From assembly GCA_003818205.1 (NCBI GenBank), contig RPRQ01000046.1, positions 1 to 35,186 on the forward strand: a stretch of DNA of 35,186 bases, read 5' to 3'. The notes beneath the pieces are model-generated. The model was not told the DNA's origin and searched no databases. It was given only the letters and a program-made list of their open reading frames with translations. Origin of the DNA: Bacteroidales bacterium (GTDB lineage Bacteria; Bacteroidota; Bacteroidia; Bacteroidales; Tenuifilaceae). Both the position numbers and the translations under genes were made by a program. Shown here in pieces: positions 12,621-27,905 of this stretch. Position 1 is the first letter of the stretch. Each line of letters opens with the position of its first letter.

Positions 12621-13289
12621 ATGGAGTACATAGTCATTAGTTTGCTTATTTGCTACATTGCATACGTTCATTATCAAATGAATAAGAAGGATCGCCTAAT
12701 TGAGACGATGGTTAACAAGTTTAGTAGAATCGAGAAGGATTGGGATACTAATCAAATACTTTTGCTGCTCGAAGAACATCGGTTACTGCACAGCACAACA
12801 ACCATTAGCCGTAATAGACTATTCGATGAACCTGTAATAAAATTTCTATTCGCAAACGAGAATGACTCAAAAATATTTATTCACTACACCAAGGACGAGT
12901 TAACGGCAAAAAAGATATTGAGAGAGGGTTTTAGGTTTATTGAAGCCTTCGAGAAAACTGCAGAGCAGGTGTATAACGACTCTGTTGACCTGAGCTACAA
13001 GCATAACGTTCGGAAGTACTACGGGAAATACATTGTAGTGATTTGCATAGGAAATGAAATATACAACCATTTCAACGAGGAGCTAATACATCTTAACAAA
13101 CAAAACACTCAACCCGAGCATATTCTATCGGGCATCCCATCATTCATAAACGAAAACGAGGAGGAGGTATTTACCCTCTCCAAGCAATTCGTTAAGGGCT
13201 ACATCAACTACGAAACGGGAACAATCGTTCAAAACTCTGAATTCAGCCCGAGCTATAAATACTTCGTTACCAAGGAGCAACTTAACTAG
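12621..13289 (+). CDS. Membrane-anchored hypothetical protein with ART-like pattern (paralogue 1)
   Basis: A 222-residue protein of no family I can name. It has one N-terminal membrane helix (about 2-19), a charged possible coiled coil (20-60) and a C-terminal soluble domain. That domain contains HYTKDE (His88-Tyr-Thr), then KKILREGF, a YYGKYIVVI strand and an acidic stretch leading to VFTLSKQFVKGYINYETG. An H-x-T followed about ten residues later by IL-x-x-GF, and a late E-V-[FV] strand, is the arrangement seen in many ADP-ribosyltransferase-fold proteins (DarT and relatives). The similarity is inferred by eye. The protein at 16497-17177 is a gap-free paralogue. An arrangement with residues 60-222 in the cytoplasm is plausible. 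Function is unknown. Confidence 0.75.
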   Translation: MEYIVISLLICYIAYVHYQMNKKDRLIETMVNKFSRIEKDWDTNQILLLLEEHRLLHSTTTISRNRLFDEPVIKFLFANENDSKIFIHYTKDELTAKKILREGFRFIEAFEKTAEQVYNDSVDLSYKHNVRKYYGKYIVVICIGNEIYNHFNEELIHLNKQNTQPEHILSGIPSFINENEEEVFTLSKQFVKGYINYETGTIVQNSEFSPSYKYFVTKEQLN

Positions 13290-14335: not shown

Positions 14336-15964
14336 ATGAAACATCCTCATGTTTATCTAATAAGAAATCTTCTAAAAAATAACGGAATAAAAATAAACGA
14401 GGAAGAGCTTGAATTTCAACTCTTATCCCATCCAACATTTCCTAGCTTACATGCTATTACAGGAGTACTTGATCATTTTTCAGTTAAAAATTATGCGCTA
14501 GAAGTTCCAATAAATGCAGAAGCATTAAATCTCTTACCTAACTCTTTTTTGAGTGTCATTAAAGATAATCGACAAAACGGTTTTGCTTTAGTGAACAAGT
14601 TTAACCGTAATTTCTATTTATCATATAATGAAACGAATAAAAGCACTATTTCTGAAAATGAATTCTTAGATATTTGGCCGGGATTAGTTGTTATCATTGA
14701 TGAGGATAACAAGAAAAATATTTCAACGCCTAAAAGGAACTCTACAAACAGGAATATTTTAATAGCTGTAATCTCAACACTGGCAATCTTCTTTATTTAT
14801 AGAAACTCTATATTCCCATCAATTCATTTCATACTATCACTTGTTGGACTTGCAATATGCATCCTAATATTATATCATGAATTAGGAATTAGCTCAAAAA
14901 TGCTTAGCAAATTTTGCTCCGAAGACAATAAAAAAACAAGCTGTGATGCCGTATTGAATTCAAAAAGAGCTAATCTTTTTGGTTCATTTAAGCTAAGCGA
15001 TGTTGGAATAATCTATTTTGTTTCCATAATCCTATCATGGGCTCTACTACGAAATAGTAACACTAACTATAGTTCAATTGTTTTAATCACCCTTTTAGCA
15101 ATCCCCTTCACATTATTCTCAATTTACTATCAGTATAGAATCGTAAAAAAATGGTGTTTGCTTTGCCTAAGCGTTGTTTCAGTACTTTGGCTCCAAGCTA
15201 TCTCACTACTTTTTAGCGATTTTAGGTTTAATCAAATTTATCCTGATTTAAATAGCATATTAACAGCTGCTTCATGCTTTCTGATATCATTTGCATTATG
15301 GCAGTTTATCTCTCCAATACTAAAAAAAGAGCAAGAACTAAATACATTAAAGATTGAGCATTTTAAATTTAAGCGAAGCTACAGCATATATAAATCACTA
15401 ATCAATAATTCCGAGCAGATTAATACAAACATTAGCGATACTAATGAAATAGTTTTTTGCAACAGCAAAGAAACTCCACTTCTTAATATTGTAATCATTA
15501 CCAATCCTCTATGCGGATTTTGTAAAGAAGCTCATGATTTAGTTGAAAAACTATTAAAAATAGAGAATGGATCTATTAAAATCATCATTCGGTTTAATGT
15601 AAAGGAGGAATCCGATTCCATCGACACCAAAATAGCATTAAAACTAATTGAAATCTACAAAACAGATAGGGAAAAATGTTTAGAGGCCATGCATGATATT
15701 TACGGCATTTTATCACCTAAAGATTGGTTGCTCAAATGGGGTGAACCTACTGAGCAAAAATATACTGCGGTTTTAAGCAAAACCAAATTCTGGTGCAAAC
15801 AGAATAACATCAATTTCACCCCTGAAATTTTAATAAATGGAAGGTCATTCCCTCGGGAATATAACAGAGCCGATTTGGTTTATTTTATAGATGATATTAT
15901 TGAAGAGGAAATAGAATTAGTATCAATACAAACACCAACGTTTAGTCTCGAATCAACGATATAG
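14336..15964 (+). CDS. C39-like / VKOR / thioredoxin fusion oxidoreductase
   Basis: A 542-residue fusion. Residues 1-125 resemble a C39 peptidase domain (HPTFPSLHAITGVLDHF, LPNSFLSVI), but the catalytic Cys is absent and the catalytic His position reads Phe (GFALV). Residues 140-330 are hydrophobic helices of the VKOR family, with loop cysteines Cys194 and Cys203 and the active CxxC Cys274-Leu-Leu-Cys277. Residues 370-530 form a thioredoxin/DsbA-like domain with Cys393-Gly-Phe-Cys396 and a cis-Pro-type TPEILING segment. VKOR passes electrons from a thiol-oxidase domain to quinone, so the protein should form disulfides outside the cytoplasm. C39-VKOR fusions occur near double-glycine peptides in Bacteroidota. 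Here the precursor gene follows 97 bp downstream and has four core cysteines, the likely substrate. No C39 exporter is encoded in the window. Confidence 0.85.
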   Translation: MKHPHVYLIRNLLKNNGIKINEEELEFQLLSHPTFPSLHAITGVLDHFSVKNYALEVPINAEALNLLPNSFLSVIKDNRQNGFALVNKFNRNFYLSYNETNKSTISENEFLDIWPGLVVIIDEDNKKNISTPKRNSTNRNILIAVISTLAIFFIYRNSIFPSIHFILSLVGLAICILILYHELGISSKMLSKFCSEDNKKTSCDAVLNSKRANLFGSFKLSDVGIIYFVSIILSWALLRNSNTNYSSIVLITLLAIPFTLFSIYYQYRIVKKWCLLCLSVVSVLWLQAISLLFSDFRFNQIYPDLNSILTAASCFLISFALWQFISPILKKEQELNTLKIEHFKFKRSYSIYKSLINNSEQINTNISDTNEIVFCNSKETPLLNIVIITNPLCGFCKEAHDLVEKLLKIENGSIKIIIRFNVKEESDSIDTKIALKLIEIYKTDREKCLEAMHDIYGILSPKDWLLKWGEPTEQKYTAVLSKTKFWCKQNNINFTPEILINGRSFPREYNRADLVYFIDDIIEEEIELVSIQTPTFSLESTI

Positions 15965-16061
15965 CTAAATAGTATTTAATCGAATCTCTCGCGATGAGTA
16001 GACACAAACCCTGAGTGTCTTTAAATGATCGGGGCTTTTAAATAACCTAAAATTAATAACT

Positions 16062-16232
16062 ATGAAAAGTTTAAAAGACTTAAAAGGGGTGAGAATCCTA
16101 AGCAAAGTGGAACAAAAGCCTATTACAGGTGGTGCTCAGCAATGTGATGAAACACATCGTTGCAAACCAGGTTTTTATTGCTATTACTCTTCGGGCAATT
16201 CAGGCTATTGCCTTAGAGGAGAAGAGCCCTAA
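16062..16232 (+). CDS. Double-glycine leader peptide precursor with four-Cys core
   Basis: A 56-residue peptide. The leader starts MKSLKDLKGVRILSK and ends ITGG at residues 21-24, the pattern of the Bacteroidales GG natural-product precursor family. Cleavage after Gly24 would give a 32-residue core with Cys28, Cys34, Cys40 and Cys50 (spacing C-x5-C-x5-C-x9-C), rich in Tyr and Gly, with an acidic end. The even cysteine number and the thiol-oxidase fusion immediately upstream suggest two disulfides made during or after export. A 13-bp hairpin follows at 16295-16326. A weak AGACAC/GTGTCT stem (16000-16020) lies between the oxidoreductase and this gene. Activity (bacteriocin, signal or other) cannot be told from the sequence. 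Confidence 0.8.
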   Translation: MKSLKDLKGVRILSKVEQKPITGGAQQCDETHRCKPGFYCYYSSGNSGYCLRGEEP

Positions 16233-16294
16233 TTATTATGGATATGAGTAATAGCCTTATCTATATAAAAAGATAAAATACATTACTCCATCGA

Positions 16295-16326
16295 GAAGTT
16301 ATCTGAATTAAATTTCAGATAACTTC
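16295..16326. terminator. Hairpin after precursor peptide gene
   Basis: Perfect 13-bp arms GAAGTTATCTGAA (16295-16307) and TTCAGATAACTTC (16314-16326) with a 6-nt loop. The following tract (ATTTAC) is a poor U run, so termination may be partial. The remaining 170 bp to the next gene hold only A/T-rich DNA and a small ACAAAAAA/TTTTTTGT stem (16433-16451). Confidence 0.65.
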
Positions 16327-16496
16327 ATTTACAAATCATAAAAAGTTACTTTTTGCAAGTAAATAAACTACCATTTGTATTTCAGGGTAAAAGCTAATAC
16401 CTTGGTTTGATTTTTTCACCGACAAGTTGAACACAAAAAATTGTTTTTTGTTAGTTTAAAAAAGTCAAGGTTAATCCCATTTTCTAGCAGAAACAG

Positions 16497-17177
16497 ATGG
16501 AATACATAGCGGTTACCATACTAATCGGTTACATCGTTTACCTACACTATAATTTGAATAAGAAGAATAATCTTATCGAATCGATGGTGGGCAAACTTAC
16601 CAAACTCGAAAAGGAGTGGGACACTGAGCATGTACTAAACCTGCTCGAAAAGTTACGCCAGCTGAGCAACGAAAGTAACCTAAAACGCGATAGGTTATTC
16701 GATGAAAAAGTGATGAAATTCCTTTTTGCCAATGATGATGATTCAAAAATCTTTGCTCATTACACCAAAGATGAAAAGGTGGCAAAAAAGATTTTTGAAG
16801 AGGGATTTATGTTTGTAGATTCATTCGAGAAAACCGTAGAGCAAATCATCGACGATAGCGTTGACCTAACCTACAAGCACAATATCCGCAAATACTACGG
16901 AAAATACATTATTATTATTTGCATTTCGAATGAGGTATATAACCATTACGACTCGGAGCTCAAACGCTTAGACAAGCATAATATTCAGGTTGAACAAATT
17001 CTTACTGAGCACCCATCGTGCATAAACGAGAATAATGATGAGGTTTTTACTCTTTCGAAGCACTTCATCAAGGGTTATGTTAATTACGAAACGGGGGCGA
17101 TTGAATACAACCCAAAATTCAAGCCTTACTTTAACACTCCTGCATTTAACGATAACCTCAACAGGTTAAAGGACTAG
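16497..17177 (+). CDS. Membrane-anchored hypothetical protein with ART-like pattern (paralogue 2)
   Basis: A 226-residue paralogue of the protein at 12621-13289. It aligns without gaps through nearly the whole length, with the N-terminal helix (2-19), the RLFDE and KFLFAN blocks, and the soluble domain all conserved. The strictly shared positions include SKIF-x-HYTKDE (His88), AKKI-x-x-EGF, DSVDL-x-YKHN-x-RKYYGKYI, INEN-x-x-EVFTLSK and KGY-x-NYETG. These are the residues expected to matter if the ADP-ribosyltransferase-like reading is right. The tails after about residue 205 diverge. Its position directly after the peptide locus, with the other copy directly before, makes a role tied to that locus possible but unproven. 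No immunity-protein family is recognised. Confidence 0.75.
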   Translation: MEYIAVTILIGYIVYLHYNLNKKNNLIESMVGKLTKLEKEWDTEHVLNLLEKLRQLSNESNLKRDRLFDEKVMKFLFANDDDSKIFAHYTKDEKVAKKIFEEGFMFVDSFEKTVEQIIDDSVDLTYKHNIRKYYGKYIIIICISNEVYNHYDSELKRLDKHNIQVEQILTEHPSCINENNDEVFTLSKHFIKGYVNYETGAIEYNPKFKPYFNTPAFNDNLNRLKD

Positions 17178-17274
17178 ACAACCAAAAGTTCGTTTCCCTT
17201 AATTTCTTCTGAGGCTTTAAATACCTTTACAAACAATCATTAATCCAAATCGGGTGATTAAAATGATAAAATGC

Positions 17275-17282
17275 TATATTTG
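17275..17282 (+). promoter_or_regulatory. Candidate -7 box for radical SAM gene
   Basis: TATATTTG fits TAnnTTTG, 41 nt before the start at 17324; no good -33 element is seen. Confidence 0.4.
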
Positions 17283-17323
17283 AAACCTTTCAACAGCATA
17301 ATTATTGTTAGCATTTCAAAAAT

Positions 17324-18808
17324 ATGAATATCCTTCTCGTCTATCCCGAAAACCCTGATACATTTTGGAGTTTCAAGCATGCACTTCGGTTTACAAATAA
17401 AAAATCATCCATTCCACCATTAGGATTAATCACAGTATCAGCACTTTTACCTAAGAATTGGAATAAAAAGCTGATAGATCTTAATGTAAACAAGTTAAGA
17501 CACGATGATCTAACATGGGCTGACTATGTATTTATTAGCGGGATGTACGTTCAAACTGATTCGGCAAACAGAATAATTGATGAGTGCAGAAAGTATAATG
17601 TAAAAATTGTAGGCGGTGGTCCACTCTTTACTCAGAACTACAATCATTATTTGCATATCGACCACTTAGTGCTTAACGAAGCAGAGGTTACCCTTCCCAT
17701 GTTCATTAACGATATTGAATCGGGCAAAAAACCTCAAAAGATATACAGGAGCGATGAGTATGCTGACATGACGCAAACCCCAACACCTGATTTCAGCTTG
17801 CTTTCGTTGAAGGACTACGTCGCAATGAATATTCAGGTTGCCCGCGGATGCCCTTTCGCCTGCGACTTCTGCGAAATCACCTCTCTTCTAGGGCATAAGG
17901 TTCGTATGAAAGATACCTATCAGGTAATTGCTGAACTCGATGCGCTTTATCAGCAAAACTGGCGAGGTATCGTCTCCATTGTTGACGATAATTTCATTGG
18001 AAACAAAAAGCAGATTAAATACGACCTACTCCCTGCAATGATTGAGTGGATGAAGGAGCATAAATACCCATTCACATTCAACACCCAAACTTCCATCGAC
18101 CTTGCCGATGACGATGAGATGATGACGATGATGATAGAGGCAGGGTTCTTCTCCGCATTCATAGGCATCGAAACCCCCGATGAGCAAGGGCTAAAGGATT
18201 GCAATAAAATTCAAAACCGGAATAGAGATCTACTCCAAAGCGTTAAAAAAATACAAATGGCTGGATTTCAGGTCACAGGTGGATTTATAGTGGGTTTCGA
18301 CAGCGATTCGCCAACCGTTTTCGAGCGTCAAATTGATTTTATACAGCAAAGCGGAATCGTTTCCGCTCTGGTTGGCATGCTCAATGCTCCCAAAAACACC
18401 AAACTATACGATCGGCTTGAAGCCGAAAACCGCATCTTGTCCGATGCAACGGGCAATACCACCGACTTAACCATAAACTTCATACCCAAAATGGATATGG
18501 ATGAGCTGATGGAAGGCTACAAATCAATTATACATAGCATTTACTCATCAAGACCTTACTATAAAAGGGCACGCATGTTCTTGCTAAATCACCAACAGCA
18601 TCATAAGCGTCAAAAGAAATTTGAGCTATCGCTAATTAGCGGTTTTATCAAATCGGTTATCGTAGTTGGTATAATTAAACGGGGCAGAAGGGAGTACTGG
18701 AAGTTTATTGCATGGACATTATTCCGAAGACCCGACCTATTCGTCAATGCCGCAACTTTAACAGTTTTTGGTTATCACTATCGCACAATTTTCAAGATTA
18801 GGAAATAA
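17324..18808 (+). CDS. B12-binding-domain radical SAM protein
   Basis: A 494-residue protein. An N-terminal cobalamin-binding Rossmann domain (about 1-140, starting NILLVYPENP, with IPPLGLITVSALLP and VGGGP) is followed by a radical SAM barrel with the cluster motif Cys176-x3-Cys180-x2-Cys183 in RGCPFACDFCE. The C-terminal part (about 390-494) is basic and resembles the DUF4070 tail found in this subfamily. Members use SAM and often methylcobalamin for methylation or rearrangement of lipids and other small molecules. The substrate here is unknown. The canonical DxHxxG cobalamin ligand is not seen in the N-terminal domain, so B12 may bind without a lower His ligand or not at all. The next gene (S9) starts 56 bp downstream on the same strand. 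Confidence 0.88.
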   Translation: MNILLVYPENPDTFWSFKHALRFTNKKSSIPPLGLITVSALLPKNWNKKLIDLNVNKLRHDDLTWADYVFISGMYVQTDSANRIIDECRKYNVKIVGGGPLFTQNYNHYLHIDHLVLNEAEVTLPMFINDIESGKKPQKIYRSDEYADMTQTPTPDFSLLSLKDYVAMNIQVARGCPFACDFCEITSLLGHKVRMKDTYQVIAELDALYQQNWRGIVSIVDDNFIGNKKQIKYDLLPAMIEWMKEHKYPFTFNTQTSIDLADDDEMMTMMIEAGFFSAFIGIETPDEQGLKDCNKIQNRNRDLLQSVKKIQMAGFQVTGGFIVGFDSDSPTVFERQIDFIQQSGIVSALVGMLNAPKNTKLYDRLEAENRILSDATGNTTDLTINFIPKMDMDELMEGYKSIIHSIYSSRPYYKRARMFLLNHQQHHKRQKKFELSLISGFIKSVIVVGIIKRGRREYWKFIAWTLFRRPDLFVNAATLTVFGYHYRTIFKIRK

Positions 18809-21331: not shown

Positions 21332-21591
21332 GTTTTATAAGTTTAAAGTGGTAATTTTGACTAGGGATATTTTATTGTTAAGATTGGTGGAAGTAAACAT
21401 ATAAGTAAGTTATGCCTCTCCCTAAAAAACGAGACGGCCAACATTGACAAATAGGAAAATTAATAACAAATTACCGATACTTCTGCAAAATCAAAAGAAC
21501 TGCCCCCAAGGCTCAAAGCCAATACAATGCAGCACATTTGCTTTTGCCCTGCCGAGCCGAAAAAAAACTAACTGATTTACTAAAATATCAA

Positions 21592-21599
21592 TATCTTTG
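21592..21599 (+). promoter_or_regulatory. -7 box of the defence-like operon
   Basis: TATCTTTG is an exact TAnnTTTG match, 18 nt upstream of the ATG of the XRE-like frame at 21617. It implies a very short leader. Confidence 0.6.
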
Positions 21600-21611
21600 C
21601 ATTAAATGCAA
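21597..21611. promoter_or_regulatory. Palindromic operator candidate
   Basis: TTGCATT-A-AATGCAA is a perfect 7-1-7 inverted repeat overlapping the -7 box and the expected start of transcription. Its position suits an autorepressor such as the XRE protein encoded just downstream. Confidence 0.55.
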
Positions 21612-21616
21612 TTAAC

Positions 21617-21817
21617 ATGAGTCGAAAAGCAATAAATAGAATCAAGGTAGTACTAGTTGAAAAGAATCTAAGTTGTAAATGACTTGCTGAACAGCTTGGC
21701 AAGAACGCAGCTACTATTTCAAGATGGTGTACTAATGATGTACAACCAAACTTATCAACTCTTTTTGAAATTGCTCATCTCCTTAAAGTTTCACCAAGAG
21801 AATTAATCCTCGAATAA
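21617..21817 (+). pseudogene. XRE-family regulator interrupted by in-frame TGA
   Basis: Conceptual translation gives a 66-codon helix-turn-helix protein (NRIKVVLVEKN, then LAEQLGKNAATISRWCTND, then LSTLFEIAHLLKVSPREL). This is the compact XRE type often controlling restriction-modification genes. Codon 22 (21680-21682) is TGA in ...SCK-stop-LAEQLG; relatives normally have Trp (TGG) just before LAEQLG, so a single G-to-A change explains it. The rest of the frame is intact and ends at a TAA directly abutting the ATG of the next gene. As written, only a 21-residue peptide would be made, and no in-frame ATG restores the helix-turn-helix. Read-through, recoding or a sequence error are alternatives. 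Loss of this regulator could leave the operon without autoregulation. Confidence 0.75.
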
Positions 21818-24310
21818 ATGGATGAAAAATTAAACATATCAACTAAAATTCCATTTAAGGTTTCGGCAAGGACTGCAAAACTAATTGGTCTCGAAAATTT
21901 CTCGACTGAAGAAGGTGCGATAATTGAACTTGTCAAAAACACCTATGACGCAGATGCATCAAACTGTATCATAATCTTCGACTTAAAATATAAAAAGGGA
22001 AATTCAACGACTGAAGAAGTTCCTTCGGAAAAGTTTGACAAAGAAAATAGTATAATCTATGTCATTGACAATGGCATTGGGATGAATGATAAAATCATTC
22101 AAAACCAATGGATGACAATTGGAACTGACAACAAACTTTACGAGCACACCACAAAAGCAGGAAGAATAAAGACTGGAGCAAAAGGTATTGGTCGATTTGC
22201 ACTCAATCGACTTGGTATGTTTACGAATATGATTACTTTACCAGATCAATTAGATTTAAATGGAGAGGAATTAATTAAGAATCAAGAGAAAATTGGTTTT
22301 GACTGGACTGTTGACTGGAAAGATTTTGACAAAGTTGGGGCAACCGTTGCAGATGTTCAGGCAGTTTTAACGTCAAAAGAAAGTACTAACCTAAAACAAG
22401 AATTTGCAGGTCGTTTTTCAAACTACAAAAAAGTACTAGAAACAATAGAAGAAATAAACTTTGAATCTGGTACCGTTATCGAAATAACTGAATTAAATGA
22501 CGATTGGAGTGAAGAAAAATTAACAAAACTATTTGGCAACCTAGAAATGCTTCTTCCTCCTGAGGAACAAAATGAGTTTAAAATTGATCTCTTCCTTCTC
22601 AATAATCTCGAAGAGTTTGGTACTGTCAAAAGAGCCTATTATGATGATTATGATTATAAATTAAAAGCCTCATATGAAACATCTATAGGTAAAATCTTAA
22701 AGATTGAAATAACACGAAACGAACTTGATGTAGATGCTTTAGAAAATAGGTATGCAGAAGTATTTCAGTTTGAAATGATGAAAAATTCACCATTCAAACT
22801 TGAAGATTTTAAAAAAGGAAGTATTCAATCAGAGATACCTATCGAAAAATTGATATCGGAAAAAGTAGATACGGATTTACTTGAAAGGATTGGTAAATTT
22901 GATTTTTCATTTTATTTCTTAAAGAATACGATTTCGGATGACAAAGATGATGGTGATCTAAAAAAATATCCTTATAAAAGTATCAATAGTGCAAACAGAA
23001 AATCATGGCTTAAAAAGTTTGGTGGTGTAAAAATATTTAGAGACGATTTCCGTATCAGACCTTATGGAGAAAATGGAGATGATTGGTTGCGATTAGGAGA
23101 AAGACAGGCTCAAAGTCCTGGAGGGACAGGACAAAGACTTGGTGGATTTAGAATCAGACCGAATCAAATAGCTGGAACCATCAGAATATCAAGAATTCAC
23201 AATGCTAATTTTCAAGACAAATCTGGGCGTGAGGGAATTATCGAAAATGATGAGTTTGAGTTATTTAAAAATATCTTAATTGATATCATTGGTCTTTTCG
23301 AGAAAGATCGTAACATTATAATGCATAACCTTTTTAAACTTCACAATGACAGAAAAAGTGAAGAAGAGAAGGTAAGAAAAGCAAAAGAGGATGCTGAACG
23401 GGTAAAAAAAGAGAAGGAAGAAAGAAAAAATAAAGATGAAGAAAGAAAGAGTGAAAAGAATAATGAAAATTCTAAAACTGAACCAGCAGACTCATATGAA
23501 AATATGGCTGAGGCTTTCTTGATTCTGGAAAGAGAGAACGAGAAAAAAGATGAAGAATTGAGATTATTAAGGAGTTATGCCAGTGTAGGGCTTATTATTT
23601 CATCTTTTGCTCATGAGGTTAAAAGCTTAAGAGCACGACTAATTCCCAGAACAAAATTCTTGATAAGCGAGTTAAAAAAACATTTAAATGAAAAAGAATT
23701 AGAATCAACCTTAGACAAAGATGATAATCCTTTCTATATGATTGATTTAATGAGTGAAGAGGATTTTAAGTTGAAACATTGGCTTGATTATTCATTAAAT
23801 ACTCTAAAACCTGATAAACGAGAAAGGATCAATTTAAACTTTACTGAATATTTTGAAAAGTTTAAAGCTAATTGGAGTAAGGCTTTAAAACAAAGAAATA
23901 TTAAAATTGAGTTATATAAACTCGATGACCAAGAGTGCATCATTAGAGCGTTTGAAGTAAATATGGATTCTATTTTCAATAATTTGCTTTCCAACTCAGT
24001 TAATGCTCATTATGGTCATAATAAGGAGGAGAAAAAAATTGAAATAAAATGGAAGAAAAAGGACAGAGATATTGAAATCTTTTTTTCTGATAATGGCAAA
24101 GGATTGGATAAAAAGTATTCAAATAATCCAGAAGAGATTTTCAATTTGAATGAATCATCAAAAACTGATAATAAAGGAAATAAAATTGGAACAGGATTGG
24201 GTCTTTACATTGTAAAATCAATCATCGAAGAGTATAATAACTCGTCCATTTCAATTATCAAGATTGATGAGGATTTAACTTTTAAAATAACCTTTAAGGC
24301 TAGGAAATGA
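21818..24310 (+). CDS. Dual GHKL ATPase / histidine-kinase-like protein
   Basis: An 830-residue protein with two GHKL (HSP90/MutL/histidine kinase) ATP-binding folds. The first, N-terminal and MORC/HSP90-like, has the N-box IIELVKN (Glu37, Asn41), DNGIG (84-88) and GAKGIG (120-125). A Lys/Glu-rich coiled coil lies at about 510-590. Next is a dimerisation-type helix with His599 in SFAHEVK, at the place of a kinase phosphoacceptor. The second GHKL domain has Asn726 in the N-box, DNGKG (758-762) and GTGLG (791-795). Both ATP lids look complete. MutL/MORC-like GHKL ATPases are known in restriction-modification contexts. The kinase-like half, with a receiver gene overlapping by 4 bp (ATGA), suggests phosphotransfer. 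It is probably the sensor or motor of the defence-like operon. Codon use is clearly more A/T-rich than in the left flank. Confidence 0.85.
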   Translation: MDEKLNISTKIPFKVSARTAKLIGLENFSTEEGAIIELVKNTYDADASNCIIIFDLKYKKGNSTTEEVPSEKFDKENSIIYVIDNGIGMNDKIIQNQWMTIGTDNKLYEHTTKAGRIKTGAKGIGRFALNRLGMFTNMITLPDQLDLNGEELIKNQEKIGFDWTVDWKDFDKVGATVADVQAVLTSKESTNLKQEFAGRFSNYKKVLETIEEINFESGTVIEITELNDDWSEEKLTKLFGNLEMLLPPEEQNEFKIDLFLLNNLEEFGTVKRAYYDDYDYKLKASYETSIGKILKIEITRNELDVDALENRYAEVFQFEMMKNSPFKLEDFKKGSIQSEIPIEKLISEKVDTDLLERIGKFDFSFYFLKNTISDDKDDGDLKKYPYKSINSANRKSWLKKFGGVKIFRDDFRIRPYGENGDDWLRLGERQAQSPGGTGQRLGGFRIRPNQIAGTIRISRIHNANFQDKSGREGIIENDEFELFKNILIDIIGLFEKDRNIIMHNLFKLHNDRKSEEEKVRKAKEDAERVKKEKEERKNKDEERKSEKNNENSKTEPADSYENMAEAFLILERENEKKDEELRLLRSYASVGLIISSFAHEVKSLRARLIPRTKFLISELKKHLNEKELESTLDKDDNPFYMIDLMSEEDFKLKHWLDYSLNTLKPDKRERINLNFTEYFEKFKANWSKALKQRNIKIELYKLDDQECIIRAFEVNMDSIFNNLLSNSVNAHYGHNKEEKKIEIKWKKKDRDIEIFFSDNGKGLDKKYSNNPEEIFNLNESSKTDNKGNKIGTGLGLYIVKSIIEEYNNSSISIIKIDEDLTFKITFKARK

Positions 24311-24957
24311 AATATAAAATTGCATATTTAGACGAAAATAATGGTTGGATAAATACTTTTTATCAAACTTTCAAGACCGAATTTGATATATTAAGAATCA
24401 AAGTGGATAACAATTCTTCGATAGGGGAATTAGTAGAACAATTAATGGCAAGTAATCTAGACGCAATTGTTACTGATTACTTACTGGAAGAGGAGGGGGA
24501 TGTTTCTTTTAATGGAAATAAAATTGTTGAAGCAATAAAGCAAATTAAACCTCATTTCCCTTTAATAATGCTTACTTCTTACCAAAAGCAAGCAATTAGT
24601 TTTACAGATGATGTTCACATAATATACAGTAAGGATATTTTAGATGGAGAGAATGAAGATGAATTGGAAATCTTCAAAACCAAAATCAAGTCGAATATTT
24701 CAAACTATTACAAGAAAATTGAAGACACAAATGATCGAATAGAGAATCTTGTGGAAAGAAGAAATACCCATGGTTTAGAAATCCCTGAAGAGGAAGAGCT
24801 TACTAAGTTGTATATCTTGTTTGATGAACTTAATCCTGAGGGAAAAGATATGCCAGCAAATTTAATTCATAGAGATTCAATATCTAAACTCAATGAGTTT
24901 GTAACCGAAACAAAGGAAATTCTGGAGGAGCTTAAGAAACTAAATAAGAAGAAGTAA
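24307..24957 (+). CDS. Response-regulator-like receiver-domain protein
   Basis: A 216-residue protein. The first 120 residues or so fit a receiver domain: acidic pair Asp9/Glu10 in AYLDEN, probable phospho-acceptor Asp57 in IVTDYLL, Thr90/Ser91 in MLTS and Lys109 in YSKD. The remaining 95 residues are helical and highly charged (EELTKLYILFDELN, a Lys-rich tail), with no DNA-binding domain recognised. It therefore probably acts by protein contact. It overlaps the GHKL gene by 4 bp and sits 1 bp before the HNH gene. It is most simply the phosphotransfer partner of His599 in the preceding protein, controlling the nuclease or methylase. Confidence 0.82.
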   Translation: MKYKIAYLDENNGWINTFYQTFKTEFDILRIKVDNNSSIGELVEQLMASNLDAIVTDYLLEEEGDVSFNGNKIVEAIKQIKPHFPLIMLTSYQKQAISFTDDVHIIYSKDILDGENEDELEIFKTKIKSNISNYYKKIEDTNDRIENLVERRNTHGLEIPEEEELTKLYILFDELNPEGKDMPANLIHRDSISKLNEFVTETKEILEELKKLNKKK

Positions 24958-24958
24958 T

Positions 24959-25537
24959 ATGATTCCATTTAGAAAAGAGACTCCGAAAAGAAGAGATATA
25001 AAAACTGCTGTTACAATATATTCTGACCACAGAGATGAATTAAAAAAGGATTATAAATGTCGTTGTGGATATTGTAATGATATTGATCTTTGGCGAACAG
25101 TTTGGTTTGAAATTGATCATTTTGTTCCGCAGAAATATTTAAAAACCATTAAAGATACAGATTATTCAAACCTAGTGTATGCTTGTAGGTCATGTAATAA
25201 TTCTAAATGGGCCCATTGGCCAACTGGTAATGAATTAATTCACAATCTAAATGATGAAGGTTTTATAGACCCTTGCAATGATGATTACGGAGTACAATTC
25301 GAGAGAGGGCTTGACGGAAAAATCACATATAAAACTAAGTTAGGAAAATGGATGTTTTACAAATTAAAACTTCACAAGCCACAACACGAAGTAATATGGA
25401 ATATTGAAGAAACTTATAACTTAATTAATGAGTGTAAGGAGATTTTAAATAAGATTGACAGCCCAGAAATTAAAAATAGGCTACTGATTTTGTACGGTAA
25501 ATATGTTGAATATACCTTAAAACTTAGTGAGACATAA
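24959..25537 (+). CDS. HNH endonuclease
   Basis: A 192-residue HNH nuclease. Zinc-binding cysteines Cys36-x2-Cys39 (RCGYC) and Cys76-x2-Cys79 (ACRSC) frame the motif: Asp53-His54 in EIDHFVP, Asn71 in SNLVYA and Asn80 in CNNSKW. The first HNH block is within 60 residues of the N-terminus. The C-terminal half (100-192) is of unknown type and may hold a recognition or partner-binding region. In this operon it is the only candidate for DNA cleavage. Translation is probably coupled to the gene before (1-nt gap) and to the methylase after (ATG 1 nt past the stop). Confidence 0.9.
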   Translation: MIPFRKETPKRRDIKTAVTIYSDHRDELKKDYKCRCGYCNDIDLWRTVWFEIDHFVPQKYLKTIKDTDYSNLVYACRSCNNSKWAHWPTGNELIHNLNDEGFIDPCNDDYGVQFERGLDGKITYKTKLGKWMFYKLKLHKPQHEVIWNIEETYNLINECKEILNKIDSPEIKNRLLILYGKYVEYTLKLSET

Positions 25538-25538
25538 A

Positions 25539-27377
25539 ATGAGAAACGCATTCAAATATTTAAGTCAATATTCCACTATCCCTAAGGATGTGGACAGGCT
25601 TATTATTTCTGCTTTTCTTGAAATCAATAGATTGAAGCCTCAAAACAATAAACTTCTAAAGTCATATTCAATCAATAAGAATGATAAAAATGAATATACC
25701 TCACTTATTGAATTTATATCAGTAATTAAAACAGATGAAACGACTTTAGGATTTGAAAAACTTATTGAACTTTTTGAATTTGTAATTTCACCTGCCGATA
25801 GAATCGTAAACGGTGCAATTTATACTCCTGAAAGCATCAGAGACTACATTGTGAAAGAAGCATTTATAAAAGCAACCAATATTAATACTCAAATAAAGAT
25901 TTCAGATATTGCTTGTGGTTGTGGCGGTTTTTTGTTCAATACTTCATTAGAACTAAAAAAACGATTTCAAATACCTTATTCGGAAATTTTTAAATACAAC
26001 ATTTTCGGTCTTGATATTCAAGAATATTCGATAACGAGAAGCAAATTATTACTTTCGCTATTGGCTTTGCAATCAGGTGAGGACGAAAATGAGTTTGAAT
26101 TTAACTTGTTTCAAGGTGATTCGCTAGATTTTGATTGGACAACTAAAATTGATGGATTCAATGGTTTTAATATCATTTTGGGTAACCCACCCTATGTTTG
26201 TGCTAGAAATCTAGACGAAATCACTAAAGAAAAATTTAAAAACTGGGAAGTGTGTAAGTCAGGCAATTCTGACCTTTATATCCCTTTCTTTCAAATCGCA
26301 GTAGAAAATTTAACAGCAGATGGGGTTCTTGGCTTTATTACAATGAATTCATTCTTCAAAAGCTTAAATGGAAGGGCTTTACGAGACTATTTTCAAAAAA
26401 AGAGACTTGCAATTAGTATAATTGACTTTGGGTCTGAACAGGTTTTCAAATCTAAGAACACATATACTTGTATTTGTTTTATTGAAAACAGAAATCAGAA
26501 TTTTATTTCATATACCACATCTGAAAGTGATAAATTAAAAAGAAAACAATCATTTGAAAAAGTGCGTTATGAAATCCTTGATTCAAAAAAAGGATGGAAT
26601 TTGAAAAACAACCAGACCATTTCTAAAATTGAATCTACAGGTATTCCTTTTGGTGAACTTTACCAAACTAGACACGGGATAGCGACCCTTAAGAATGACA
26701 TATATATTTTTAGACCAGTTGATGAAGATGAGAACTATTTTTACTTACAAAATGGCAGTTTGTATAAAATAGAAAAAGGAATTTGCAAAGACATAGTTAA
26801 TTCAAATAAATTAAGTCGTGAGATAAGTTTGAACAATCTAATGGAGAAGGTCATTTTCCCATACGATCAGCAAGAACGTCCAAAACTTTTAGAAGAGAAA
26901 TTAATCAAGGAATACTTCCCAGAAGCATACAAATATTTGCAAAACAAAAGAAAAGCCCTAGCACAAAGGGACAAAGGAAATGGAAACTATGAAAACTGGT
27001 TTGCTTTCGGTCGCACTCAGTCATTGGAGAAAATTAAGAACAAAATGTTCTTCCCAAAATATTCCGACAGAACACCGAATTTCATAATCAATACTGATGA
27101 TGACTTACTTTTTTATAATGGATTAGCAGTCGTTGGAAGTTCAGAGATTGAAATGAAAATTATCAAGAAAATAATGGAATCTAATGTCTTTTGGTACTAT
27201 ATCAAGACAACAAGTAAACCCTATTCTTCAAACTACTATTCATTAAATGGAAACTATATCAAGAATTTCGGTGTTTGTGAATTGACAAATGGAGAAAAGG
27301 AATTTTTAATGGAAGAAACTGAACAAAATATTTTGAATGATTTTTTTGAGGTCAAATATGAAGTAAAAGTTACATAA
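25539..27377 (+). CDS. Eco57I/TaqI-type N6-adenine DNA methyltransferase
   Basis: A 612-residue gamma-class amino-methyltransferase. The frame extends to a GTG at 25527, inside the HNH gene, but the ATG at 25539 is preferred. Motif I is DIACGCGG (123-130) for SAM binding; motif IV is Asn216-Pro-Pro-Tyr219, the adenine-N6 catalytic loop. Residues from about 370 onward (LYQTRHGIATLKNDIYIF, then WFAFGRTQS, ending SNYYSLNGNYIKNF) resemble the TaqI-type C-terminal target-recognition domain. It should methylate adenine in a specific site. It could protect self DNA from the HNH nuclease, or itself be part of the effector. No separate specificity subunit is seen. Confidence 0.9.
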   Translation: MRNAFKYLSQYSTIPKDVDRLIISAFLEINRLKPQNNKLLKSYSINKNDKNEYTSLIEFISVIKTDETTLGFEKLIELFEFVISPADRIVNGAIYTPESIRDYIVKEAFIKATNINTQIKISDIACGCGGFLFNTSLELKKRFQIPYSEIFKYNIFGLDIQEYSITRSKLLLSLLALQSGEDENEFEFNLFQGDSLDFDWTTKIDGFNGFNIILGNPPYVCARNLDEITKEKFKNWEVCKSGNSDLYIPFFQIAVENLTADGVLGFITMNSFFKSLNGRALRDYFQKKRLAISIIDFGSEQVFKSKNTYTCICFIENRNQNFISYTTSESDKLKRKQSFEKVRYEILDSKKGWNLKNNQTISKIESTGIPFGELYQTRHGIATLKNDIYIFRPVDEDENYFYLQNGSLYKIEKGICKDIVNSNKLSREISLNNLMEKVIFPYDQQERPKLLEEKLIKEYFPEAYKYLQNKRKALAQRDKGNGNYENWFAFGRTQSLEKIKNKMFFPKYSDRTPNFIINTDDDLLFYNGLAVVGSSEIEMKIIKKIMESNVFWYYIKTTSKPYSSNYYSLNGNYIKNFGVCELTNGEKEFLMEETEQNILNDFFEVKYEVKVT

Positions 27378-27623
27378 CTCAACGCTACTGGTGGCTTTTA
27401 GAAATTTCCCTCAAACCAACGCACCAAGTCTGACCCCAAATGGCAAGGCGCCAAACTGGGCAGAAGAAAACATACATAACAGCCTCTAAACCCAATCAGA
27501 GTAGACTTGCAGAAAAGAAAGTTTTTTTACATTAAGAAGGGGTTACCTTTATATAAATTTCTGGAGCATACCAACAAATACCCAACCATAAACACGTTAG
27601 AGGTAAACTTGAAAAGTTAGTGC

Positions 27624-27717
27624 ATAACTAATAGTTTTTTAATAGTTATATTATATTTTTAAATATAACTAATAAAATATAAATAGTTATACTTAATTCA
27701 TCTCTTTACAATAACTA
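27624..27717. repeat. Five alternating ATAACTA/TAGTTAT heptamers
   Basis: ATAACTA occurs at 27624-27630, 27665-27671 and 27711-27717, and its reverse complement TAGTTAT at 27643-27649 and 27684-27690. They form perfect longer arms, TAGTTATATT (27643-27652) with AATATAACTA (27662-27671), and AATAGTTAT (27682-27690) with ATAACTATT (27711-27719). The orientation alternates strictly at 19-27 nt spacing. It may be a multi-site protein-binding region at the island's right edge; no gene is obviously controlled. Confidence 0.55.
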
Positions 27718-27779
27718 TTAATATGAAATCTTTGCAAAACCTATTAGTTTTTGTTTTTCAGGTTTAAAATCTCGTTTTG

Positions 27780-27905
27780 CTACTTTTTAGAGTCTATTTT
27801 GACAAAAATATTCCATGTTTTTTGACCTTTTTTCATCCACCTTACGGTTATTTTTTCCACTATTGGGGCGATAGGGTTTGCTATTTTGCCGATCCTGATG
27901 ATCAT
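27780..27905 (-). CDS. Possible small lysine-rich ORF (41 aa)
   Basis: Minus-strand frame ATG (27905-27903) to TAG (27782-27780) encoding 41 residues, starting MIIRIGKIANPIAPIVEKI and ending in a Lys/Trp-rich part (RWMKKGQKTWN). It is unusually free of A/T-biased nonsense for this spacer and encodes a basic amphipathic peptide. There is no identified promoter or family, so it could be chance. Confidence 0.22.
   Translation of the reverse strand: MIIRIGKIANPIAPIVEKITVRWMKKGQKTWNIFVKIDSKK

Follow-up and report, generated by a model that had tools for sequence, protein, structure and literature searches.

HEF_HK (PF19191) and Response_reg_2 (PF19192) proteins have been linked computationally to restriction-modification genes (Bellieny-Rabelo et al. 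2021, PMC8011034). In the sections of that paper considered here, C5 methylases and Vsr are the conspicuous partners, HNH variants and N6/N4 methylases are noted, and a paraMORC ancestry is proposed. MORC and paraMORC ATPases were reported together with restriction genes by Iyer et al. (2008, PMC2292703), as far as the portions of the text drawn on here go. We analysed a related locus in a 35,186-nucleotide stretch of contig RPRQ01000046.1 from a Bacteroidales bacterium of the Tenuifilaceae (the whole stretch is called the window below). Here, a small XRE-type frame precedes genes for a kinase-like GHKL protein (HK), a receiver protein (RR), an HNH nuclease and an N6-adenine DNA methyltransferase. 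A preliminary interpretation of this DNA, referred to as the sequence-only reading, had named no described system of this composition; a kinase-like GHKL protein with a receiver and restriction-modification genes was, judging from those sections, already published in 2021 (PMC8011034), though with different Pfam domains. The general kind is therefore known, and what is new here is a swappable HK-RR-HNH core. On sequence comparison, the cassette is a real, conserved and mobile system of four to five genes.

The locus resembles the HEF_HK system, as far as the cited sections describe it, in its soluble N-terminal HATPase_c_3 domain, DHp-like helix with a His, C-terminal HATPase_c domain, single-domain receiver-like neighbour and restriction-modification context. 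Unlike the systems as described there, it has a fixed HNH-N6-methylase cassette and exchanges its core. Membership in the HEF_HK/Response_reg_2 system was considered and rejected, as both Pfam domains failed to match. HEF_HK matched none of 43 HKs at E <= 0.1 and nothing in the window's own genome at E <= 1e-5; the same model, used as a positive control, found members in 3 of 198 genomes of the class. Response_reg_2 gave no match over its cut-off in 12 genomes or records including the window's own, where the best E value was 0.013 on another contig, and it was not among the 25 most frequent of the 82 families matched in the RR set. The HEF_HK proteins of the class genomes matched the HK profile at E values of 5e-36 to 3e-44, and the RR and HNH profiles found nothing in those three HEF_HK neighbourhoods. 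We infer that the HK family and HEF_HK are sister families of one kind. With the MORC/paraMORC systems (PMC2292703, in the portions drawn on) the locus has in common an N-terminal GHKL-S5 module encoded near restriction genes, HNH among them. It differs in that the module is joined to a histidine-kinase core and has a receiver as its partner; neither the word receiver nor the word two-component appears in that text.

Four intact genes were confirmed head to tail on the forward strand, behind the interrupted XRE frame. These are HK at 21818-24310 (830 amino acids, aa), RR at 24307-24957 (216 aa), HNH at 24959-25537 (192 aa) and the methylase, at 25539-27377 from an ATG (612 aa) or at 25527-27377 from an alternative GTG (616 aa). 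The XRE stop directly abuts the HK start (0 bp), HK and RR overlap by 4 bp, and single bases separate RR from HNH and, given the ATG at 25539, HNH from the methylase. The sequence-only reading had described a tight operon of five frames; the four genes and the spacing stood, whereas the XRE frame proved to be interrupted by a TGA at codon 22. A chance operon is excluded, because the same gene order is kept in other genomes.

HK comprises a HATPase_c_3 domain of the MORC/MutL GHKL type (aa 32-133), an S5-like middle region, a coiled coil, DHp-like helices with the predicted phospho-acceptor His599 (23612-23614), and a HATPase_c domain (aa 717-827). Both ATPase domains were matched in all 43 HKs compared (the window's and 42 relatives), and the gene order places HK beside a receiver gene and near restriction-modification genes. 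At a mean column identity of 40%, H599, N722/N726, D758xGxG, G791, G793 and G795 are invariant in all 43, as is D84xGxG in the N-terminal half, and the motif GAKGIGRF is invariant or conserved to at least 90%. We take the conserved kinase boxes to be those named N, G1 and G2. The structure model of HK (pLDDT 79, pTM 0.58) matched histidine-kinase cores (ZraS and HK853) and the ATPase modules of MORC2, MORC3 and SMCHD1, the latter with Foldseek E values of about 1e-9 to 3e-11; the S5 part of the GHKL-S5 arrangement was judged through these three matches alone. The predicted structure of HK is most readily understood as two fused halves, a MORC-type DNA clamp and a kinase.

RR carries the receiver residues D9/E10, D57 (24475-24477), T90 and K109, followed by a helical tail. 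Among 43 RRs with a mean column identity of 32%, D57, P85 and T90 are invariant, and D9 and K109 are kept in at least 90%. By Pfam the protein is a weak receiver (E 8.7e-5, below the cut-off), with Response_reg matched in 30 of the 43 at E <= 1; the structure model (pLDDT 86.9) has a receiver fold with a helical tail. The hallmarks of two-component proteins are present in the pair, namely a conserved His with N, G1 and G2 boxes in HK, and the acidic pair, Asp, Thr and Lys in RR. The architecture of a His-Asp relay with two GHKL domains, His599 and Asp57, as well as the link to MORC ATPases, had both been put forward in the sequence-only reading and were borne out by the invariance of both residues and by the model matches. 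No DNA-binding or enzyme domain was recognised in the RR tail, either among Pfam families or in the model. Output by protein contact is therefore likely, and RR probably makes that contact, most simply, with the HNH encoded by the neighbouring gene.

The HNH nuclease resembles PtuB of the Septu system. It matched Pfam HNH at E 2.2e-8 (H54 at 25118-25120), and C36, H54, N71, C76, N80 and K83 are invariant in 10 of 10 aligned sequences, with C39 and C79 kept in at least nine. The PADLOC PtuB models matched all 10 HNHs at E <= 1e-5, the window's with a modest 43 bits; its matches to NCBIfam PtuB and TIGR02646 fell below the cut-offs of those models. Reciprocal searches found this HNH only alongside HK, in the same 6 of 395 class genomes and in 5 of 5 plasmid records. 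The methylase is of the Eco57I/N6_Mtase type (Eco57I, E 2.6e-29; PADLOC MTase_II, 348 bits), with NPPY and GCGG motifs in its translation and conservation in uneven blocks along the protein, a pattern that points to no particular target site. It does occur apart from HK: two of its five matches in the 395 class genomes sit in other settings, one of them adjoining an open reading frame (ORF) that reads as a C5 methylase by its motif, as recognised by eye.

A scan of one genome per species (84,980 species) yielded 492 HK relatives, from which the best 80 were kept; as the best-scoring of 492, these loci are biased to Bacteroidota and close relatives, and many are contigs of metagenome-assembled genomes (MAGs). 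RR followed HK in all 79 loci whose contig continues past HK, damaged copies included, and HNH came next in all 76 with enough sequence. An adjacent N6 methylase was present in 74 of 75 loci, downstream in 72 and upstream in two (L033 and L096), with none in one (L089); five further loci end at a contig edge. The co-conservation that the sequence-only reading had proposed as a check is thus seen for both the nuclease and the methylase. Damaged copies include an HNH in pieces beside an intact methylase ORF (L034), a short RR ORF (L094) and split HKs (L047 and L080).

By record title, the best 80 are mostly Bacteroidota and include Desulfobacterales, Methylotenera, Sulfurovum, Paenibacillus, Saccharibacteria, Verrucomicrobia and an archaeal Methanolobus MAG, although contigs of any MAG may be misplaced. 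Overall, the cassette was found in Bacteroidota, Proteobacteria, Campylobacterota, Bacillota, Deinococcota and an archaeal MAG, on plasmids and on prophage-like contigs. Plasmid cassettes occur in Ensifer, Salipiger and Deinococcus, the last with the methylase gene first. An alignment-based search placed HK relatives on 22 viral contigs, several of them distant and without HNH or with other methylases; a viral scan with a single HK sequence found no relative, and phage records gave two partial hits, below 60% cover. No HK match was found in 30 other relatives of the window's genome, some of them incomplete. Judged from its presence on plasmids and viral contigs and from the lack of an HK match in the searched relatives, the cassette is mobile.

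Three further settings of related kinases were observed. On a Campylobacter coli plasmid (L018, 8007-12460), a related kinase and a longer receiver protein lie beside a C5 methylase gene, with no HNH, and 41 of the 86 kinase-matching plasmid records are from Campylobacter. At L119 (5443-10253), a distant kinase relative of 1137 aa has a weak N-terminal EcoRII-N match (20.9 bits, below the cut-off) and adjoins an EcoRII-C endonuclease gene. This possible fusion to a DNA-reading domain gives a hint that such kinases may read DNA directly. At L089 (7947-15624), the core without a methylase-model match adjoins a 1215-aa protein that matches a PADLOC caspase model; among five neighbour proteins from loci other than the window that were compared with PADLOC, a caspase model gave the one match.

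Co-inheritance was analysed in 79 loci (66 from the genome scan, five whole-genome, three plasmid, four viral, and the window). To enter, a locus needed RR, HNH, an HK longer than 600 aa and, following HNH, an ORF of 400 aa or more. Of the 83 loci that qualified, L096 was removed because this ORF matched no methylase model, L101 and L043 because they coincide with L022 and L020, and L046 as a near-copy of L045. Pairwise identities of HK, RR and HNH covary (Spearman 0.62-0.67), whereas those of the methylase and the core hardly do (0.09-0.17; 0.09 for HNH and methylase). Unrooted FastTree trees, one per protein, were compared through four HK-cluster labels (K1-K4), which cover 62 of the 79 loci; the other 17 were not counted. 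On each of the RR, HNH and HK trees the labels change three times, which is the minimum; the methylase tree has 23 changes, and shuffled labels give means of 31.5-31.8 across trees (100 shuffles each). The same discordance is seen in single loci. The window and locus L103 are 86% identical in the methylase and 37%, 24% and 31% identical in HK, RR and HNH, respectively. Six loci have HNHs 52-61% identical to that of the window but methylases of only 17-20% identity to its methylase; conversely, five loci with methylases of 80-86% identity have HNHs of 30-31%.

The boundaries of the exchange were located in the DNA of 31 pairs that share at least 75% identity in the methylase but less than 50% in HK. 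In 26 of these, the point where homology resumes is no more than 20 bases away from the HNH stop (for the window and L103 it starts at 25538); the exceptions are three pairs in which it resumes 466-509 bases earlier, inside HNH, and two in which it does so about 200 bases later. It stops near the methylase stop, at a median of 1 base past it. Upstream homology reaches into the first 116-871 bases of HK in 20 pairs, starting more than 200 bases before HK and spanning the XRE region in 15 of them, and 4-89 bases before HK in the other five. The remaining 11 pairs involve L076, L082 and L071 and have no upstream match recorded, probably because HK starts were called differently; for L098 and L082 an upstream match was seen otherwise. 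The class of the XRE protein follows that of the methylase (15:3 versus 1:11; Fisher p 9e-5 in 30 loci, not corrected for relatedness). These DNA mosaics and the tracking of methylase class by XRE show that HK-RR-HNH is replaced as one unit inside a frame of XRE and methylase. Such an absence of reassortment within the triad is what one would predict for a signalling chain in which kinase and receiver, and receiver and nuclease, are in tight contact.

A single site also shows the exchange: L030, L031 and L079 (Aquimarina, Luteirhabdus and Dokdonia records) share a chromosomal neighbourhood, and the core of L079 is of cluster K4, not K1.

The part of the frame upstream of HK begins with a leader on the forward strand (21592..21611), in which TATCTTTG at 21592-21599 is followed by an overlapping inverted repeat, TTGCAT-TAA-ATGCAA, at 21597-21611. 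Position 21592, which the sequence-only reading had taken as the start of the operon, is the first base of the promoter-like TATCTTTG and lies outside the XRE frame, which runs from 21617 to 21817. We take TATCTTTG to resemble the -7 box of Bacteroidota. The ATGCAA half of the repeat is kept in 13 of 18 leaders of the same XRE class and both TTGCA/TGCAA halves in seven of 18 (counted by eye, window excluded). Since the halves are kept in same-class leaders, the inverted repeat is likely an XRE operator and is our candidate for it. The frame itself encodes a small XRE/Cro-type helix-turn-helix protein (HTH_3, E 2.6e-9 when the TGA is read as W) and has its in-frame TGA at 21680-21682. Relatives have intact XRE homologues of the same class in the same place, 65-85 aa long and with Trp at the codon-22 position. 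The XRE gene belongs to the system, and is either interrupted in the window's genome or affected by an assembly error there. An intact controller in the window was ruled out by the TGA, of which an assembly error is still a possible cause.

The cassette has a GC content of 0.29-0.32, below most of the window. A blastn comparison of the window with a congener (L147) delimits an accessory stretch at 21361..27863 (no strand assigned); the congener has the same flanks, an S9 peptidase upstream and MarR downstream, with different genes between. Elsewhere in the window, ORFs of 222 and 226 aa at 12621-13289 and 16497-17177 are apparently paralogous, matching the same L147 stretch by blastn, and gave no Pfam match at E 0.001. 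The region 14336-18808, outside the cassette, encodes a VKOR/thioredoxin-type protein and a radical-SAM/B12-binding DUF4070 protein and is low in GC in its first half.

Several defence systems share elements with the cassette; the comparisons refer to the parts of each paper considered. Like Septu PtuAB (PMC13096335, PMC11555353), it has a PtuB-type HNH effector with a partner ATPase. Unlike Septu, it lacks the PtuA ABC ATPase, encoding only XRE, HK, RR and methylase besides HNH, and has GHKL kinase-receiver control and a methylase. The GHKL-fused Shedu protein VcSduA (PMC12137116) restricts phage and needs both its GHKL ATPase and its nuclease activities. It is likewise a GHKL ATPase, of paraMORC3 type, coupled to a nuclease; unlike the cassette, it is a single protein with a PD-(D/E)xK nuclease, and no kinase half, receiver or methylase is mentioned in those parts of the paper. 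Detocs (PMC11249213) is similar as a two-component-style defence of three genes that passes a signal to an effector. Unlike here, its best-described effector is an ATP-cleaving PNP, and its description mentions no methylase or MORC half in the parts considered. A figure legend of the DefensePredictor paper (PMC13092281) names HATPase and REC among the domains of predicted, not-yet-validated systems, and the considered parts of a BREX survey (PMC12839542) do not describe this gene set. No description of the four-gene cassette or of its core exchange was found in the full-text papers searched, a set that leaves subscription papers and preprints largely outside.

The mechanism we favour, with about even confidence, is that the cassette, mobile and probably directed against phage, uses a phosphorelay to gate its PtuB-like HNH nuclease, with the methylase marking host DNA. 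It builds on the parts and their active-site constellations, the receiver fold, the MORC-plus-kinase fold, HK-RR-HNH co-inheritance, methylase exchange and mobility, all taken from sequences or models. From these we infer the biochemical steps, the signal, the nuclease substrate, the defence role and XRE autorepression as follows. The methylase would mark host DNA as self, and the MORC-type half would act as an ATP-driven DNA clamp or sensor for foreign or unmarked DNA or for an infection-specific structure or state. On sensing, the C-terminal half would autophosphorylate on His599, and the phosphate would move to Asp57 of the receiver. The phosphorylated receiver, via its helical tail, would then free or activate the HNH nuclease, for which both DNA and tRNA are in view as targets. 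The small XRE protein would repress the operon. Phage sensing that triggers phosphotransfer and licenses DNA cleavage, as put forward in the sequence-only reading, stays hypothetical. Going further, self and non-self might be read by the MORC-type clamp kinase rather than by the nuclease. The methylase would then provide an exchangeable mark, and kinase, receiver and nuclease would be a single exchangeable decision unit compatible with many different methylases, so that recognition would not depend on any one DNA sequence; this extension is possible and we hold it tentatively, with more doubt than belief.

Several observations weigh against the gated-nuclease mechanism. The methylase exchange fits a self-mark only if the sensor needs no particular site. 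The triad at L089 has no methylase-model match anywhere in 18.6 kb, and at L083 an intact HNH accompanies a split methylase, which would be harmful if HNH cut unmethylated host DNA freely, unless the split is a sequencing error. The methylase is also weakly linked to the core, not wholly free of it, because its correlations exceed all permutations (for all five pairs tested, both methylase pairs among them, the observed value lay above those of the 500 permutations); its 23 label changes are likewise fewer than in any of the 100 shuffles (28-36). The HK model is of low confidence around His599, with a pLDDT below 50 at residues 579-600 and the overall pTM of 0.58. Finally, one PADLOC match among five neighbour proteins does not establish a defence-island context for the cassette, and neither HK nor RR matched a model of PADLOC-DB 2.0.0, a release in which the presence of Detocs models was unchecked.

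The same data were weighed for other explanations. If the cassette were an abortive effector, a phosphorelay-triggered HNH would cut tRNA or DNA regardless of methylation and kill or arrest the cell, and the methylase would be a phage-inhibited bait or guard or a separate layer. The PtuB-like character of the HNH speaks for this, since the reported cleavage target of PtuAB systems, in the parts of the papers considered, is tRNA-Tyr (PMC13096335) or DNA (cited in PMC11555353). So do the near-absent co-evolution of HNH and methylase, with its Spearman value of 0.09 and 23 label changes, and the one locus without a methylase-model match. However, were the methylase irrelevant to the nuclease, its presence in 74 of the 75 genome cassettes with enough sequence would be difficult to account for, and we consider an abortive effector unlikely, if still a serious candidate. 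A phosphorelay may, alternatively, be missing altogether. HK would then be a MORC/MutL-type clamp, the receiver-like protein a structural adaptor, and the His and Asp relics or allosteric sites. HK does match MORC ATPase modules strongly, and some receiver-like domains work without phosphorylation. This explanation has to contend with the invariance of H599, N722, N726, D758xGxG and G791/G793/G795 in HK and of D57 and T90 in RR, with D9 and K109 at 90% or more, in families that are otherwise only 40% and 32% identical by mean column, and we regard it as very improbable.

A classical type II restriction-modification system, in which a site-specific HNH is matched to the methylase and the kinase-receiver pair tunes activity or expression, would account for a methylase and a small HNH nuclease in one operon. 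Small HNH restriction enzymes exist, among them KpnI, PacI and Hpy99I. Similar HNHs nevertheless stand beside dissimilar methylases and the reverse, 26 of the 31 swapped pairs have their homology boundary no further than 20 bases from the HNH stop, and RR has no recognised DNA-binding domain. A caveat is that one and the same target site could be common to methylases from different families. A matched HNH-methylase pair is argued against by the identity mismatch, the label changes and the swap boundaries, and this explanation is improbable in our view. Because the methylase is nearly always present yet interchangeable, a site-specific nuclease paired with it is unlikely; the exchange pattern argues instead for a phosphorelay-gated effector. 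The term restriction-modification-like, used in the sequence-only reading, fits the presence of HNH and an N6 methylase but is weakened by the PtuB-like character of the nuclease and by its near-absent co-evolution with the methylase.

If the gated-nuclease mechanism is true, a His-Asp phosphorelay would decide on the release of a nuclease, joining two-component signalling and restriction, which are usually separate fields. One HK-RR-HNH triad should then work with methylases of different specificity, and the bacterial relatives of MORC would gain a testable biochemical output.

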